Source: a virus. Taken from it: a stretch of DNA of 41,601 nucleotides. The position numbers and the translations under genes were made by a program. The notes beneath the pieces were generated by a model. It worked only from the letters and a program-made list of their open reading frames with translations. It searched no databases and was not told the origin of the DNA. Location: IMG/VR virus record IMGVR_UViG_3300017928_000005, positions 1-41,601 of that record. One strand, given 5' to 3'. Positions 5,147 to 39,500 of the stretch are shown piece by piece (positions within the stretch are counted from its first letter, which is position 1; each line of letters starts with the position of its first letter).

Positions 5147-5329
5147 TCATTCGCCCCGCAGCGCTTTTCGTAGTTTCTTGGCGTAGTCATTCGCCGCGTC
5201 TCTCGTAGAGTGCCAGGCGACCACGACGTGAGCGTGGTCGCCAGGATCCGAGAAACCGCACACGCGGACCGACCACTGGCGTCGGTCGCCGTACAGCACA
5301 CGCACGCGCACGAACTGTCTCTGAGTCAC
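5147..5329 (-). CDS. Small hypothetical protein (60 aa)
   Basis: GTG 5329 overlaps the upstream stop (GTGA). The product reads VTQRQFVRVRVLYGDRRQWS, then a DPGDHAHVVVAWHS strand pair and a basic C-terminal helix (ANDYAKKLRKALRGE). The beta-beta-alpha pattern fits a compact single-domain protein. No named family recognised. The stop region overlaps the last copy of the intercistronic repeat (5132-5150). Confidence 0.65.
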   Translation of the reverse strand: MTQRQFVRVRVLYGDRRQWSVRVCGFSDPGDHAHVVVAWHSTRDAANDYAKKLRKALRGE

Positions 5330-5622: not shown

Positions 5623-6044
5623 GACGCTTCCTTATCCCTCCACGCCCAGTGCGTCACCTGCGGGTTCGCGCCCGCCGGGCCGTACGTGCGCGCGACCTGG
5701 AAACCATCCCGCAGCTCCTCGGGGACGCCTAGCACGGCAACCAGCTCGGCCAGCAGCCGCCTCCCATCCTCGGCGGGTGCCCCGCCGCGCCAGCTCGCCG
5801 ACAGGTGCCAGAGGTCGCGCTCCGCTTCCCGCGCCGCGACGCGATCCGCCGGGTCCTGCTCGCCGAAGACCCGCTCGACCTCGCGCCGCGCGAAGGCGAC
5901 CCGCTCGGGGTCCGCCGCGTACGCGTCCTCGTACGGTCCGTGCGTCAGCTCCAGCCGCCAGCCGGCCCAGTGGCGCGTCGCGAGCTTGCGGGCACGCGCG
6001 TCGCGGCGCAGCCGGCGGGCGACGTCGGCGGGTGAGTCGGTCAC
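5619..6044 (-). CDS. Hypothetical protein (141 aa)
   Basis: GTG 6044 overlaps the stop of the upstream gene as GTGA. It is a charged, helical protein (ADVARRLRRDARARK, then VAFARREVERVFGEQDPADRV) followed by a more globular C-terminal third (ELVAVLGVPEELRDGFQV, WAWRDKEAS). An upstream extension of this frame to 6263 is arginine- and alanine-rich out-of-frame sequence and was not used. No recognised domain. Confidence 0.65.
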   Translation of the reverse strand: MTDSPADVARRLRRDARARKLATRHWAGWRLELTHGPYEDAYAADPERVAFARREVERVFGEQDPADRVAAREAERDLWHLSASWRGGAPAEDGRRLLAELVAVLGVPEELRDGFQVARTYGPAGANPQVTHWAWRDKEAS

Positions 6045-6500: not shown

Positions 6501-8681
6501 TCAATCTACCTTCGCCCCCCTCGTCTGGATGAGCGCCGCCTCGTGCCCCTGCCAGTGCGGCCGGATCCACGTCTTGCGCCGCAGCGTGTGCCTCGGTCCG
6601 TGAGCCTGCATCCGGAAGTGGCCGCGGACCATCCACTGCACCGTCGGCGTACCGCGACGACGACAGCCCTTCTCGGTGTCCCGGGTGCCGTGCTCGATGT
6701 ACTCCTTGACGGAGCTGCGGCAGTCGATCTCGATCGGCGCGCCGACGGTCACGATGCGGTGCGCTGGCTCCGCCTCGCGGCCCTTGCTCTTCAGGCGGGC
6801 ATCCACTTTCCTGACCTTGTGTGTGCCCGCGTCCTGCAGGTTGAGCAGGAGCCCGGCCACCAAGCGCTTCGCCATCACGAGGCACCGCTGGGTCGGCGAC
6901 TCCGCGACGAGGTTACTCTCCTCGCTGACGAGCAGGTCGGCGAGCGTGGGCGCCTCGTCGAGGACCGTCCGCGCCTCGGGTAGCTTGATCGCTGGACCTC
7001 CGGTCGTCAGCAGGACCATTCGCGCGCCGAACGAGTAGGTCCCCACCAGGACGCGCGAGAACTCGAACTGGTCGGCGACCAGCATCCCGTTCGGGACGAC
7101 GACGAGGAACGCGTCCCACTGCTCCTCGATGCCCTCGAGCACGTCCTTCTGGTAGTCCGAGCACATGAGCGCGGCGGCGAACGTGTGGCTCGTCATCAGC
7201 CGCTGGAAGGCGTGCACCGCCCACTTCGCCGTGAACAGGATCAGGTGGTCGGGCCATACGAAGGTGGTACCGAAGTGGGACAGCTCGTCGCGTACCTGCT
7301 CGTCGGTCCACCCGAGCGCGTAGGAGGTCTCCCAGACGCCGCGCCCGACCCGCATCATGTCGTGGTCGGAGCACTCCGACATCTTGTTCTTGAGCTGGTC
7401 GCGCCAGATCCGCAGCGTCTCGACCCGGTCTTTCGGGTCCACCTCCGCGAGCGTCTTCTCGACCACCCTCAACGCCTCCGCGCGCAGCTTGTCCACGCTT
7501 ACGGCGCCCGGCGGTACGGTCACCCCTTGCGGCATGTGTTCCTGCACGGACTCGCGGACGATCCGGTCCATCGCGCCGTTGCGCGTCGTACCCCACCGGC
7601 CCGCGATCTTGTCGAGCCGCTTCACGTCGGCGTCGCCGAGCGTGATCTCGACCGACGACCTCAGTTCGTCGGCGACGCGCTCCCTCTCTCTGTCCCTGTC
7701 CACGACGGCGCTCACGAACTCGTCGGCCGTCATCGTGTCGTACTGCCGGCACGTCGGCATGGCGTGGATGAGGTTTCCTGGCTCTGCAGGCGGGTCGCCC
7801 CACTTGACGGACAGCGACCTGCCGCAGAACGGGCAGTGCCCGTTCGTGTCTAGCGCCTCGTCGGCGCCCAGCGCGAGCATCGCCCCCGCCCGCACCTTCG
7901 CCTCCTCGCCGGCGTCCCACGCCTCGCTCGGGGTGACCACCGCGGGCGGGCGGAGCCTGTCGTACTCGACCTGCAGGCGCGCCGCGAACGCCCCCATCAT
8001 CCGCTCGCGCTGCTCGGGCGGCGCTCGGTCGAGCAGCTCGTCGAGGATCGTGTCCTCCACGTCGCCGTCCCGGAACTCCGCTACCCGGTGGGCGACCACG
8101 CGCACGTACGTCTCGTTGAAGGTCTCCTCGCTCGCGCCGTGCCAGCCGAGCTTGGCCCACCGCCCGCGCATCTCCGCCCAGCGAGGGTCGCCCATCAGGG
8201 TCTTGGCGAAGTCCTCGGCGAGCAGCCGCTCGGTGGCCGCCCTCATCAGGTCCTCGCCGGACAGCGCGAGCAGGTCGGCCGGCGCCGTCTCGTAGAGGCG
8301 CAGCGCGGTGTGGTCGACCGAGGAGAACAGCAGCGCGAGGTCGCCCTTGCCGACGCTCCTGCGCGCGACCTCCTCGTCCAGCTCGCGACGGGCCTGCTCG
8401 ACCGTCCGCACGCCGCGCCACCCCCACTCGACCATCATCGCGAGCACGCGCGGGTCGTCCGCGTCGTCGGACACCGAGTCGACGTCGACCGCCACGACCT
8501 GCGCCTGCGCGTCGACGTACGCGTCGATCTCGCGGTGGGCGCTCGCCACGACCTCCTCGCCGCGCGCCCGGGCGCAGCGCAGCTCCTGGTGGGCCGTCAG
8601 GAGCCGGGCCTGGAGCGACTCGGCCCTGTCAGTCAGCTCCCGGATCTCGCGGGACCGCGCCCGCCGCTCGCGCCGGTTCAC
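6501..8681 (-). CDS. Large conserved phage/plasmid-type protein of unknown function (726 aa)
   Basis: GTG 8681 overlaps the upstream stop (GTGA). The N-terminal 70 residues are a coiled coil (RAESLQARLLTAHQEL). Mid-protein there is CPFCGRSLSVKWG with a following CRQYD (possible zinc site) and a SVEITLGDADVKRLDKIAG segment reminiscent of a ribbon-helix-helix. The C-terminal end (WMVRGHFRMQAHGPRHTLRR, then WIRPHWQGHEAA) matches a terminal module I recall from actinobacterial plasmid and phage hypotheticals. No catalytic motif recognised. The heterogeneous layout suggests a scaffold or regulator. Confidence 0.75.
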   Translation of the reverse strand: MNRRERRARSREIRELTDRAESLQARLLTAHQELRCARARGEEVVASAHREIDAYVDAQAQVVAVDVDSVSDDADDPRVLAMMVEWGWRGVRTVEQARRELDEEVARRSVGKGDLALLFSSVDHTALRLYETAPADLLALSGEDLMRAATERLLAEDFAKTLMGDPRWAEMRGRWAKLGWHGASEETFNETYVRVVAHRVAEFRDGDVEDTILDELLDRAPPEQRERMMGAFAARLQVEYDRLRPPAVVTPSEAWDAGEEAKVRAGAMLALGADEALDTNGHCPFCGRSLSVKWGDPPAEPGNLIHAMPTCRQYDTMTADEFVSAVVDRDRERERVADELRSSVEITLGDADVKRLDKIAGRWGTTRNGAMDRIVRESVQEHMPQGVTVPPGAVSVDKLRAEALRVVEKTLAEVDPKDRVETLRIWRDQLKNKMSECSDHDMMRVGRGVWETSYALGWTDEQVRDELSHFGTTFVWPDHLILFTAKWAVHAFQRLMTSHTFAAALMCSDYQKDVLEGIEEQWDAFLVVVPNGMLVADQFEFSRVLVGTYSFGARMVLLTTGGPAIKLPEARTVLDEAPTLADLLVSEESNLVAESPTQRCLVMAKRLVAGLLLNLQDAGTHKVRKVDARLKSKGREAEPAHRIVTVGAPIEIDCRSSVKEYIEHGTRDTEKGCRRRGTPTVQWMVRGHFRMQAHGPRHTLRRKTWIRPHWQGHEAALIQTRGAKVD

Positions 8682-8971: not shown

Positions 8972-9327
8972 GACCGACCGCTGCCGTTGTTGGTATCGCT
9001 GTCGGTTTGATCGCCTCTTTCCTTGCGATGACGGTTCTGGCTCGTCTTGTAGCCACCCTTCCTCCCCGCCTCACGCGCCTCTTCCGCCGTGAACTCGTGC
9101 GCCTTCCCCAACACGTGGGCGGCCTTCCTGCCTTTCCTGGAGATCTCGCTCACTAGTTTCCGATCCATCAAGGCGAAGCCTCGACGCTGCTTGCCGTTGG
9201 GCTGGAGCGGGTGGTCGGTCTTCTTCGTCCTCGGAGTCTCTAGAGCTGTCTTTCTAGCCAAGGTTATCGCCTCCTCTGCAGTGTCACACTCGATCGAAAG
9301 ACCTTGAACGAGAACTCGATAAGTCAC
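8968..9327 (-). CDS. KGG-motif (stress-type) small protein (119 aa)
   Basis: GTG 9327 overlaps the upstream stop. The C-terminal half has the paired motif ISRKGRKAAHVLGKAHEF and EEAREAGRKGG, the repeat of the KGG / con-10 family of small hydrophilic bacterial stress proteins. The N-terminal half (VTYRVLVQGLSIECDTAEEA) forms a short strand-helix unit resembling other small phage proteins. The tail is hydrophilic and disordered. Family proteins are implicated in stress tolerance; a phage role is not known. Confidence 0.7.
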   Translation of the reverse strand: MTYRVLVQGLSIECDTAEEAITLARKTALETPRTKKTDHPLQPNGKQRRGFALMDRKLVSEISRKGRKAAHVLGKAHEFTAEEAREAGRKGGYKTSQNRHRKERGDQTDSDTNNGSGRS

Positions 9328-21912: not shown

Positions 21913-22064
21913 AGACCGCCAGACGAAGAGGGAATCGGCTGCCGTCCTACGATCTACTGGCCGCCGCCGAGTCGGTGTCCCGCGGCTTTTCGCCGTCAGC
22001 AGCCTTGTGGAATCACCTTGCGCATGATGCAGCATCTTGCTACAAGATGACACGACCCTCGTAG
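21909..22064 (+). CDS. Possible small protein (51 aa) ending inside the tRNA gene
   Basis: GTG 21909 overlaps the upstream stop (GTGA), the usual coupling in this operon, and the frame stays open to a TAG at 22062-22064 within tRNA position 8. The product is basic at the start (KTARRRGNRLPSYDLLAAAE) and otherwise helical. The tRNA promoter lies inside it. It may be a genuine terminal gene or simply open sequence; composition does not settle this. Confidence 0.35.
   Translation: MKTARRRGNRLPSYDLLAAAESVSRGFSPSAALWNHLAHDAASCYKMTRPS
22018..22046 (+). promoter_or_regulatory. Sigma70-like promoter for the tRNA
   Basis: TTGCGC at 22018-22023 and TACAAG at 22041-22046, separated by exactly 17 bases, place a start site about 7-9 bases before the tRNA 5' end at 22055. 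The -35 box resembles the TTGCGT of the divergent control region at 17732. This allows the tRNA and the downstream 699-aa gene to be transcribed independently of the upstream operon. Confidence 0.55.
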
Positions 22065-22127
22065 CTCAGTTGGAAGAGCACCGGTATACGGAACCGGAGG
22101 TCCCTCGTTCGAGCCGAGGCGATGGTC
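22055..22127 (+). tRNA. tRNA-Arg (anticodon ACG)
   Basis: Cloverleaf: acceptor ACCCTCG/CGATGGT (22055-22061 with 22120-22126; pair 4-69 is a C/T mismatch), D-stem GCTC/GAGC, anticodon stem CCGGT/ACCGG with loop ATACGGA giving anticodon ACG, variable AGGTC, T-stem CCTCG/CGAGG with loop TTCGAGC. Discriminator C; CCA is not encoded. G37 is unusual for Arg-ACG (commonly A). It would supplement decoding of CGN arginine codons, frequent in this GC-rich sequence. It has its own promoter upstream. Confidence 0.85.
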
Positions 22128-22169
22128 CCGAGTAGCCGACACAAGTTCGGCCTCGTCGTGGAGGAAGTG

Positions 22170-36876: not shown

Positions 36877-37325
36877 ACCGGGCGGACGAGTGGATCGCCG
36901 AGAACCTCACCGTCGAGGCGAGCGCCGGACCGACGGTCCGGCGCAACGTGCTCGAGGCGGCGGTCGCCAAGCTCCTCGCGGAGCGGGACGTCGACGTAGA
37001 GAAGTGGCAGGCGTACGAGCGAGACTACGTCTTGCCGTGCTTCAAGTGGGCCGAGGAGTCAGGGTTCGACCTCCGCAAGGCCGTAGCCGAGAATCCAGGT
37101 CGCAACTGCGTAGACCTGCTGGTCCGGTGGCTACAGTCCAGGGCGCGCGCCGCGGCGGCGTACGCCGAGACCGTCGACGGCGTGCGCGAGGCGCTCGGCC
37201 AGGAGGCGACGCACTACCAGGTCGTCGCCGGGGACGTGGAGGAGCTGGTCAAGGCGGTCGAACTCTGCGCGAGCGACGGCGGCTGCCGGGCGATGACCGT
37301 GCTCCGGAAGTTGAGGGAGCGATGA
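36873..37325 (+). CDS. Hypothetical helical protein (150 aa)
   Basis: ATG 36873 overlaps the exonuclease stop (ATGA). Long helical segments (RRNVLEAAVAKLLAERDV, AYAETVDGVREALGQEA) and a C-terminal LCASDGGCRAMTVLRK. No recognised family. Position between exonuclease and nuclease genes suggests a replication accessory role, by context only. Confidence 0.65.
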   Translation: MNRADEWIAENLTVEASAGPTVRRNVLEAAVAKLLAERDVDVEKWQAYERDYVLPCFKWAEESGFDLRKAVAENPGRNCVDLLVRWLQSRARAAAAYAETVDGVREALGQEATHYQVVAGDVEELVKAVELCASDGGCRAMTVLRKLRER

Positions 37326-37501
37326 CGAGGCGCGCGAGAGTGGGGAAGGTCCCGAGCGTCCTCTACGTGGTGTGCTCCACGCCGGGCAACCCGCACGCTG
37401 CCGGTCCGCTGGAGGTGTTCACGCGAAAGCGGGACGCGCAGCGGGCGAGCCGCTGGGGAGACCAGCGACTCGTGGAGTTCGTGCCGAGGGGTCACGGCTG
37501 A
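37322..37501 (+). CDS. Small hypothetical protein (59 aa)
   Basis: ATG 37322 overlaps the upstream stop, and its TGA at 37499-37501 overlaps the ATG of the permuted nuclease gene. Basic N-terminus (MTRRARVGKVPSVLYVVC) and mixed rest. Short, no family recognised, possibly expressed to couple translation of the nuclease. Confidence 0.55.
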   Translation: MTRRARVGKVPSVLYVVCSTPGNPHAAGPLEVFTRKRDAQRASRWGDQRLVEFVPRGHG

Positions 37502-38550
37502 TGCCGCTCCTCATCATCGAGACGAAGACGTCGGGCGAGGACATCACGCCCGGCAGCGCTTACTGGCGCCGGATCCGGATGGACCCGCAGATCGGCGTCT
37601 ACCTGCGCGCCGCGACGCAGGCGGGGCTCGACCCCGTCGGCATAGGCTACGACGTGCTGGGAAAGGTCGCCCTGCGGCCGCTGAAGGCGACCCCGCCGGA
37701 GTCTCGCAAGTACACCAAGCCTACCAAGACCGAGCCGTCGCGCCTGTACGCCAACCAGCGCGACCGCGACGAGACTCCCGAGGAGTACGGTGCGCGGTGC
37801 CTCGCGGCCATCGCCGCCGAGCCGGACGCGTACTACCAGCGCGCGCTGCCGGTGCGCCTGCTACAGGAGCAGCACGACGGGGCGGTCGACGTCTGGCAGA
37901 CGGCTCGGACGATGCGCGAGGCGCACCGGCTCAACGTCTTCCCGCGCAACCCGGACTCGTGCTTCTCGTGGAGCCGGGCGTGCGACTTCCTGCCCGCGTG
38001 CTGCGGGGACGTGCCCCTCGACGACCCGCTGCTCTTCCGGAGGGAGGAGAAGGACCACGAGGAGCTGGAGGACGTCTTCGAGGACGACCGCGCGGTGCTC
38101 ACGCAGTCGAGCATGCGCACGTTCCGCGCGTGCCCGCGGCGATACCAGATCCGCTACGTACTGCACCTGCGGCCGGTGCTCCGGTCCGAGGCGCTGCGGA
38201 CCGGGTCGAGCGTGCACCGGGCCGTCGAGGCGCTGCGCAAGGGTTACCCGCTCGACGAGGCCCTGCTCAAGCTCGACCACGAGGACCCGTTCGACTACGA
38301 GCGCGAGCGGGCGATGGTCGTCGGCTACGTGGCGCGCTGGGGCGACCCGACGCGGGGCATCGTGGCCGTCGAGAAGCAGTTCGAGGTGGACCTCGTCAAC
38401 CCGGAGACGGGCGCGCCGTCGCGCACGTTCCGGCTGGCGGGCAAGATGGACGCTCTCTACGAGGGCGACCCGCGCGACTTCATAAACGCGCGGCATCCCG
38501 GCGTAGGCCAGAGCGCGGGTCCGAATCCCGCGGCCGGGGCGGAGGTGTGA
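37501..38550 (+). CDS. RecB/Cas4-type PD-(D/E)xK nuclease, circularly permuted (349 aa)
   Basis: The family is normally ordered: CPRRY start, SVH, GKMD (Asp), ExK strand, QxxxY, then a Cys-rich end (PRNPDAC...CxFxxxC). Here residues 1-190 contain the later part (IETKTSG E7/K9, DPQIGVY Q30/Y34, ETPEEYGAR, PRNPDSCFSWSRACDF, DDPLLF) and residues 198-324 the earlier part (LTQSSMRTFRACPRRYQIRY, SVH239, PETGAPSRTF, GKMD317). The cut is between EGDP and PLLIIETK, i.e. between the Asp and ExK strands of the active site. Cys 154, 161, 167 and 211 could hold a 4Fe-4S cluster. The last 25 residues are non-homologous. ATG 37501 overlaps the upstream stop. Confidence 0.85.
   Translation: MPLLIIETKTSGEDITPGSAYWRRIRMDPQIGVYLRAATQAGLDPVGIGYDVLGKVALRPLKATPPESRKYTKPTKTEPSRLYANQRDRDETPEEYGARCLAAIAAEPDAYYQRALPVRLLQEQHDGAVDVWQTARTMREAHRLNVFPRNPDSCFSWSRACDFLPACCGDVPLDDPLLFRREEKDHEELEDVFEDDRAVLTQSSMRTFRACPRRYQIRYVLHLRPVLRSEALRTGSSVHRAVEALRKGYPLDEALLKLDHEDPFDYERERAMVVGYVARWGDPTRGIVAVEKQFEVDLVNPETGAPSRTFRLAGKMDALYEGDPRDFINARHPGVGQSAGPNPAAGAEV
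38470..38538 (+). other. Hairpin and tRNA-3'-like element at the permutation junction
   Basis: Right after the break in the nuclease gene, CCGCGCG (38470-38476) and CGCGCGG (38487-38493) form a perfect 7-bp hairpin with a 10-base loop. Then CCCGGC (38497-38502) pairs with GCCGGG (38533-38538), enclosing a T-arm-like stem-loop GCGGG-TCCGAAT-CCCGC (38515-38531). It looks like a tRNA acceptor plus T-arm without the D and anticodon arms, coding for the non-homologous tail of the protein. This might be a remnant of a tRNA used as a recombination site; chance is also possible. Confidence 0.35.
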
Positions 38551-38552
38551 CG

Positions 38553-39500
38553 ATGGCAGTAGACCTGAAGCGGATCACGAAGGGAAAAGTGGAGCGGCCG
38601 CCGCGCGCGGTCTTCTACGGGTTCGAGGGCGTCGGCAAGACCACGCTGGCGGCCGGGGCGCCGAACGTGTTCTTCCTCGACGCCAACCAGGGCAGCCACA
38701 AGCTCAACGTCGAGCGCGTGGTGCCGGAGTCGTGGGACGAGGCGTTCGAGTGGCTGGAGGCCATCGAGCACGGCCACGTCAAGTGCGACAACGTCGCGCT
38801 CGACGTGCTCTCGGACTTCGAGAACATGAGCCACGCGAAGCTTTTCCCCAACAGCACGATCTCCAAGTACGAGGGCGGCTACGGCAAGGGCGACGACGTG
38901 GCCTTGATGGAGTGGCGCCGGCTGCTCGCCCAACTCGAGCGCGTGTGGCTGCGCGGCAAGGGGGTCATCTTCGTGGCCCACGCCCAGGTGAAGAAGTTCG
39001 AGGACCCCACCGGTCCCGGCTACGAGCGGTTCGAGCTGGCGTGCAGGAAGAACGTCGCGGCCCTCATCAAGGGCTGGAGCGACTACGTGCTGTTCGCGCG
39101 CGAGAGCGTGACGACCGTCGCCGAGAAGGGCAAGCCCACCCGGGCCACGACGACCGGCGAGCGGTGGCTCTACACCAAGCGCACGCCCGCCTACGACGCG
39201 AAGGCGCGCGGCACGGCCCTCTTCCCGGAGAAGATCCCGATGTCGTGGGACGAGTTCGCGAAGGCGATCCGCGAGGACGACGCGCGCGGCGAGCAGATGA
39301 AGCGCGAGCTGGACGCGATGCTCGCCGAGATCGACGACAGGGCGTACGAGAAGCAGGTCCGCGACTTCCTCGCGCAGTACCCGCCCGACAAGTACCCGAG
39401 CAGCCTGGTCGACTCGTTCAACCGGGTCCAGATCCGGCTCAACGAGAAGAAGTCCGGCCAGGCCGACGCGGAGAAGAAGCCCGCGCCCGCGGCGGCCTGA
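38553..39500 (+). CDS. Sak4-like RecA-fold ATPase (315 aa)
   Basis: Walker A GFEGVGKTT at residues 23-31, then VFFLDANQGSHKL and VALDVLSDFENM (Walker B region) are the pattern of phage Sak4 proteins, RecA-like ssDNA annealing ATPases. The C-terminal 60 residues are charged and end in an acidic/Pro-Ala tail (KKSGQADAEKKPAPAAA). In phages this gene is routinely next to a RecB-type nuclease and an SSB, as here. Its ATG has GGAGG upstream. Confidence 0.88.
   Translation: MAVDLKRITKGKVERPPRAVFYGFEGVGKTTLAAGAPNVFFLDANQGSHKLNVERVVPESWDEAFEWLEAIEHGHVKCDNVALDVLSDFENMSHAKLFPNSTISKYEGGYGKGDDVALMEWRRLLAQLERVWLRGKGVIFVAHAQVKKFEDPTGPGYERFELACRKNVAALIKGWSDYVLFARESVTTVAEKGKPTRATTTGERWLYTKRTPAYDAKARGTALFPEKIPMSWDEFAKAIREDDARGEQMKRELDAMLAEIDDRAYEKQVRDFLAQYPPDKYPSSLVDSFNRVQIRLNEKKSGQADAEKKPAPAAA

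Follow-up and report, generated by a model that had tools for sequence, protein, structure and literature searches.

A naturally circularly permuted RecB/Cas4-like exonuclease gene beside a Sak4-like gene in a viral genome

The locus described here raises the question of whether a phage exonuclease gene in which the two halves stand in exchanged order encodes a working enzyme. The gene lies in a 41,601-nucleotide stretch of viral DNA (positions 1 to 41,601 of the IMG/VR record IMGVR_UViG_3300017928_000005), the whole of which is hereafter called the window. Our answer, to which we give a probability of roughly 0.9, is that the gene encodes a functional enzyme of the phage RecB/Cas4-like exonuclease family that has undergone natural circular permutation, with its old termini joined, new ones opened in the catalytic hairpin and the same predicted fold, that it likely resects DNA for Sak4, and that permutation has been repeated at three sites in the family.

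The ORF spans positions 37,501–38,550 of the + strand, the strand of all the features of this locus given below, and is open throughout (349 residues). Its ATG overlaps the stop codon of a small upstream ORF (59 aa; 37,322–37,501), which is not kept in other permuted loci, and a Sak4-like gene starts two bases past its end. Family profiles match the protein in swapped order. Positions 2–133 of Pfam PDDEXK_1 (PF12705) align with residues 200–321 (E = 5.6e-14), and PHROG 1218 (‘exonuclease’) matches in two stretches (E = 1.1e-23), with its positions 5–149 on residues 195–321 and its positions 167–329 on the first half of the protein. A canonical HMM made in this analysis from ten-odd relatives (its positions are preceded by h) behaves in the same way, h140–323 being matched first and h4–134 second. 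When the protein was rotated at the join, collinearity with the canonical family was regained and the best single-domain score of this HMM rose from 230 to 351 bits; among 49 permuted proteins, 48 scored higher after rotation. The match to PHROG 1218 and PF12705 is significant across both parts, and the order of the parts is swapped, not canonical. Judged from its sequence, the gene is a permuted variant, rather than a standard member, of the PHROG 1218 / PF12705 RecB-like exonucleases: both parts are homologous to one ancestral protein, the old termini are joined and the new termini are internal to it, as in natural circular permutation. An earlier note on this DNA had read the gene as a RecB/Cas4-like nuclease in (second half)-(first half) order, to be restored by rotation of about 195 residues. 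The order is borne out by Pfam, PHROG 1218 and the canonical HMM; the join falls near residue 197, and the rotated protein aligns with canonical relatives. The open frame, the ATG overlapping the upstream gene and the end before the Sak4-like gene, all described in that note, are seen as well.

The permuted chain begins with the old C-terminal part (residues 3–190; 37,507–38,070), delimited by tblastn, HMM order and conserved columns, which carries the ExK strand (E7, K9), Q30, Y34, DETPEEYG, C154, C161, C167 and HEEL. A linker (residues 191–197; 38,071–38,091) under relaxed constraint then leads from the old C-terminus, DDPLLFRREEKDHEEL (HEEL), to the old N-terminus, LTQSSMRTFRACPRRY (LTQS); in every permuted member the old termini are joined by 2–9 residues. 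The old N-terminal part (residues 198–322; 38,092–38,466), located by tblastn and HMM order, includes LTQSSMRTFRACPRRY with C211, H239, NPETG and the GKMD strand with D317. Past the D strand, the new C-terminal tail (38,467–38,550) is unconserved as protein (dN ~ dS) and its end is predicted to be disordered (pLDDT < 50 at residues 341–349). The new termini are placed between GKMDALYEGD and LLIIETKT, within the hairpin that links the catalytic GKMD and ExK strands. All of the PD-(D/E)XK motif residues (H239, D317, E7, K9, Q30 and Y34) are kept; the H of the N-terminal helix, the D of GKxD, the ExK and the Q/Y helix are conserved across alignments. D317, the presumed catalytic Asp, is encoded at 38,449–38,451 and is invariant in alignment A6, and the codons of the ExK motif, E7-T8-K9 (37,519–37,527), fall in conserved alignment columns.

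Four cysteines of Cas4 style (C154, C161, C167 and C211), which the earlier note had listed as all kept, are indeed present, and they are invariant in alignments A6 and A8. In canonical order, C211 is N-terminal and C154, C161 and C167 are C-terminal. In AddB and many Cas4 proteins, an Fe-S cluster is held by one N-terminal and three C-terminal cysteines. The four cysteines of the window protein are presumably the counterparts of these cluster cysteines in AddB/Cas4-type nucleases, and from them we deduce a putative Fe-S cluster. A Cas4 protein with a cluster held by four Cys has been described (PMC4176176). As such a cluster would pin both termini together, joins of only 2–9 residues would suffice in every permuted member.

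Since the window comes from a metagenome, the halves of an ordinary gene might have been exchanged in a chimeric or wrapped contig. The same order of parts, however, is shared by further viral records at 85% (L003, L004) and 78% (L006) identity, with different upstream genes. The upstream DNA of the window-clade loci diverges immediately before the common ATG, and L003, L004 and L006 are therefore distinct genomes. The swapped order is found as well in relatives at 38–53% identity to the window protein. Two isolated Tunturiibacter phages with complete genomes (Tunturi_1 and Tunturi_2) also have it, although cut at a different site. Two more loci (L001 and L002) match the window at 9100 of 9101 bases and bear other sample numbers. 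Because independent records carry the same order, misassembly is untenable, and we put its chance at next to nil. According to the earlier note, close relatives with the order of the window would count against its reading, should it have mistaken the usual order. Close relatives do share the swapped order, yet the canonical one is found in the 125 other homologues described below, in both the Pfam and the PHROG model and in solved structures of AddB, AdnA and Cas4.

A real rearrangement could nonetheless be decayed or non-functional and heading for loss, a reading with which the C-terminal tail, evolving without protein constraint, would agree. Against it, pairwise omega in the window clade is 0.08–0.30 in both parts, every motif residue is kept and the order is maintained over large divergence. 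We thus consider decay very improbable, and the earlier view of the gene as unlikely to be a decayed fragment holds, with purifying selection on both parts. In most comparisons of the linker and tail of the window clade, which are short segments, omega is near or above 1. Low omega in the parts together with values of about 1 in linker and tail is the pattern expected of a functional enzyme whose joint and end are free to vary.

The 3′ tail of the permuted gene includes a hairpin resembling the T-arm of a tRNA, GCGGGTTCGANTCCCGC (38,510–38,535), directly before the Shine-Dalgarno sequence of the Sak4-like gene, where the protein is barely constrained. It is kept in five related permuted genes (the window, L003 at 6018–6034, L004, L006 and L113), in which 25 of 25 cells pair; with five sequences, covariation is not significant. 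The presence of this hairpin in the window clade could point to RNA-level processing, by which a permuted intron-exon arrangement or a circular RNA would rejoin the halves so that the protein is canonical. But the divergence of the upstream DNA at the ATG means that there is no conserved second intron half, the hairpin matches no Rfam family and is absent from other permuted members, and the linker is short and in frame everywhere. Rejoining at the RNA level is exceedingly improbable in our estimation. Permuted intron, circular RNA and tRNA-like processing were dropped as candidates, there being neither an Rfam nor a tRNA match for the hairpin, nor an upstream counterpart, and individual folds of the region being no better than shuffles. 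Separate from the permuted genes, a tRNA-like element (acceptor-like stem, one hairpin and T-arm, with no anticodon arm) was observed in a pair of related viral contigs (L007, about 7560–7625; L009, about 7565–7628), where it follows the canonical nuclease gene at a distance of about 1.6 kb; its hairpin sequences differ and seemingly stay complementary. The window also carries a tRNA-Arg (acg) gene at 22,055–22,129, mid-record and near a change of coding direction.

Structure prediction was then used to examine the fold of the permuted chain. The alignment supplied to AlphaFold2 combined permuted members with unaltered, separate halves of canonical relatives, and the prediction was thereby guided towards the known fold. 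With this seeded alignment, the window protein was modelled with pLDDT 93 and pTM 0.87, strands E3–11 and E306–321 bearing ExK and D. The model of the canonical relative L034 reached pLDDT 94 and pTM 0.88; the rotated window protein is 50% identical to L034 over 313 columns, and 95% of the predicted secondary-structure letters agree. A Foldseek search of the PDB with the permuted model gave 0 matches at E ≤ 0.001 (best match RecE, 0.72), and the canonical model gave 20 (AdnA, AddB, an Argonaute-associated Cas4 and RecE lead; MGME1 is also among them). For a permuted chain, an order-dependent search would be expected to fail even when the model is confident, as happened here. The permuted chain is thus predicted to fold still into the canonical nuclease domain. 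Profiles, relatives, selection and structure prediction all bear out a permutation cut between the strand of the catalytic Asp (GKMD) and the ExK strand, with the termini in the active-site hairpin, as proposed in the earlier note.

Widened searches yielded 176 distinct homologous ORFs, 51 of them permuted and the other 125 canonical. Three cut sites are found among the permuted homologues, a recurrence that the earlier note did not describe. The type I cut separates the D strand from the ExK strand (h about 135–140) and is shared by the window clade, L113, L114, L116, L117, L183, L209–L215 and L257. In type IIa, the cut follows the helix HxxLEAYF (h about 55–60; L168, L174–L179, L184, L186, L267–L297 and the Tunturi_1 and Tunturi_2 exonucleases), and in type IIb (h about 71; L134/L135 and L218) it is placed one helix beyond, the helix DAALxAL being C-terminal in IIb and N-terminal in IIa. 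The types differ both by cut site and by tree position. Canonical order, being that of the solved relatives, of both the Pfam and the PHROG model and of the majority of family members, was treated as the ancestral state. In a careful tree built from 52 rotated sequences, five changes from the canonical state are needed to account for the permuted forms. AU tests rejected a single clade of all permutants (p = 1e-9) and a single clade of IIa plus IIb (p = 5e-4), and did not reject type I as a single clade (p = 0.34). For IIb as a single clade, p was 0.014 in the careful tree and 0.80 in a larger quick tree. At least three permutation events are likely to have occurred in the PHROG 1218-type family, and the type I group may have had one or two origins, the trees being of modest support. 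Tandem-duplicate intermediates were looked for in all loci, without result. A profile scan of genome contigs with the permuted alignment alone gave no match, and the mixed alignment matched only canonical members, in bacterial genomes.

Two other features of the family deserve mention. The central segment of the protein (window residues about 58–86) occurs in two versions, KATP...RKYTK..LYANQR versus IPLLDxDGVKIVxDANGxRVRTKDGKKWRES, and both are present in canonical and in permuted members, which suggests exchange of this segment between lineages. In L014 (same contig as L071), an in-frame TAG at 5280–5282 splits a canonical nuclease gene between h86 and h92, both parts being well kept; TAG recoding was considered for this gene, but ORF lengths, which show no hint of general recoding, lend it no support.

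The partner gene of the module (38,553–39,500) encodes a Sak4-like ssDNA annealing protein (PHROG 124, E = 1.4e-40) and is a conserved neighbour. Among loci with enough sequence, the nuclease gene is followed by a Sak4-like gene no more than 1.5 kb away in all 118 canonical and in 44 of 48 permuted loci, and the order in the Tunturi phages is exonuclease, small ORF, Sak4-like gene, SSB. In L004 (6045–8070), the Sak4-like gene contains an in-frame intein-like insert of about 370 aa in the Walker A motif (GVGK|TT); as read from the translation, the insert has the LAGLIDADG-type motif LLGLLLGDG and ends in HN, and it is absent from relatives that are 85% identical.

As a Sak4-like gene follows canonical and permuted nuclease genes alike, the role of the enzyme is most likely unchanged, namely resecting DNA ends for Sak4. 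We infer nuclease activity for the window protein and a partnership with Sak4, in which the Sak4-like protein most likely anneals single strands that the nuclease has exposed by resecting DNA ends. Permutation might instead have been accompanied by a shift of function, the opened hairpin changing substrate, polarity or regulation, for instance towards a structure-specific or regulated nuclease. The cut of the window clade parts the two catalytic strands and the new tail is free to bear other functions, which would fit such a shift; neighbour gene and motif residues are, however, the same as in canonical relatives, and the second cut type, which is far from the catalytic strands, has the same gene context. 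A shift of function appears unlikely to us.

For a permuted exonuclease of unchanged role, the following explanation can be proposed. The old termini bear the ligands of the presumed four-cysteine Fe-S cluster and should hence lie side by side; a few residues join them, and the new termini are opened in the hairpin between the GKMD and ExK strands. The chain would then fold as the same nuclease domain and resect DNA ends for the neighbouring Sak4-like protein, and permutation was repeated at three sites, probably because clustered termini tolerate joining. As for the genetic route, a tandem duplication or a fusion may have come first and new start and stop codons afterwards; the standard routes of permutation are duplication in which start and stop codons arise anew, and fission combined with fusion (PMC3320104). 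Beyond this, we lean slightly towards the view that natural permutation has a hot spot in this family of phage nucleases. The cluster would pin the termini, and independent events, three to five in number, would have cut the chain in at least three places, in one case through the hairpin of the active site; the permuted forms would be a stable large minority, in which an opened hairpin may alter substrate or Sak4 pairing in a selectable way.

To our knowledge, it is uncommon for a single catalytic domain to be naturally permuted, and rarer still for this to happen repeatedly, and at different sites, within one family. Here, canonical members, members cut in the helical region and members cut between the catalytic strands form a natural series in which to test whether clustered cysteine-bearing termini permit permutation, and the same series could show the genetic route. 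Permuted forms elude order-dependent fold searches and match family profiles piecewise, and are therefore easily mis-annotated. Phage recombineering could also draw on them as natural templates for nucleases in split or fused form. We found no report of permuted RecB/Cas4-like nucleases in the literature searchable here, and ‘permut’ is absent from a PD-(D/E)XK survey (PMC1189080) and a Cas4 phylogenomics paper (PMC5704561). The statement of the earlier note that natural permutation through the active site is undescribed stands for the searchable literature on RecB, Cas4, PDDEXK and phage exonuclease.

Of the known systems, the canonical PHROG 1218 / PF12705 phage exonuclease beside Sak4 (e.g., L034, L021 and L007) is 37–55% identical per part and shares with the window its motifs, four cysteines and downstream Sak4-like gene. 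It differs in the order of parts, and its termini are at the cysteine-bearing ends, whereas those of the window protein are in the active-site hairpin. The exonucleases of Tunturi_1 and Tunturi_2 (XJP11549.1 and XOB77130.1), annotated only as ‘exonuclease’, are likewise permuted, with a similar short join and an exonuclease/Sak4/SSB module, but they are cut after the HxxLEAFF helix and not between the D and ExK strands. The nuclease domains of AddB, AdnA and RecB and the Cas4 family (PDB 4cei, 6ppr, 9iac, 4ic1) have a fold like that of the canonical relative’s model; unlike the window protein, they are in canonical order and helicase-linked or CRISPR-linked. The S subunits of type I restriction enzymes are related to each other by natural circular permutation at several cut points (PMC3874165). 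Like the window protein, they belong to a DNA-metabolism family with permuted members, but each is a pseudo-symmetric two-repeat protein, with no single catalytic domain, and is no nuclease. The HD domain of Cas10 is a naturally circularly permuted nuclease-type domain (PMC3150331), of the unrelated HD fold. Permutation is, then, known in DNA-processing proteins; here it concerns a RecB/Cas4-like nuclease, and its recurrence is the most surprising feature.
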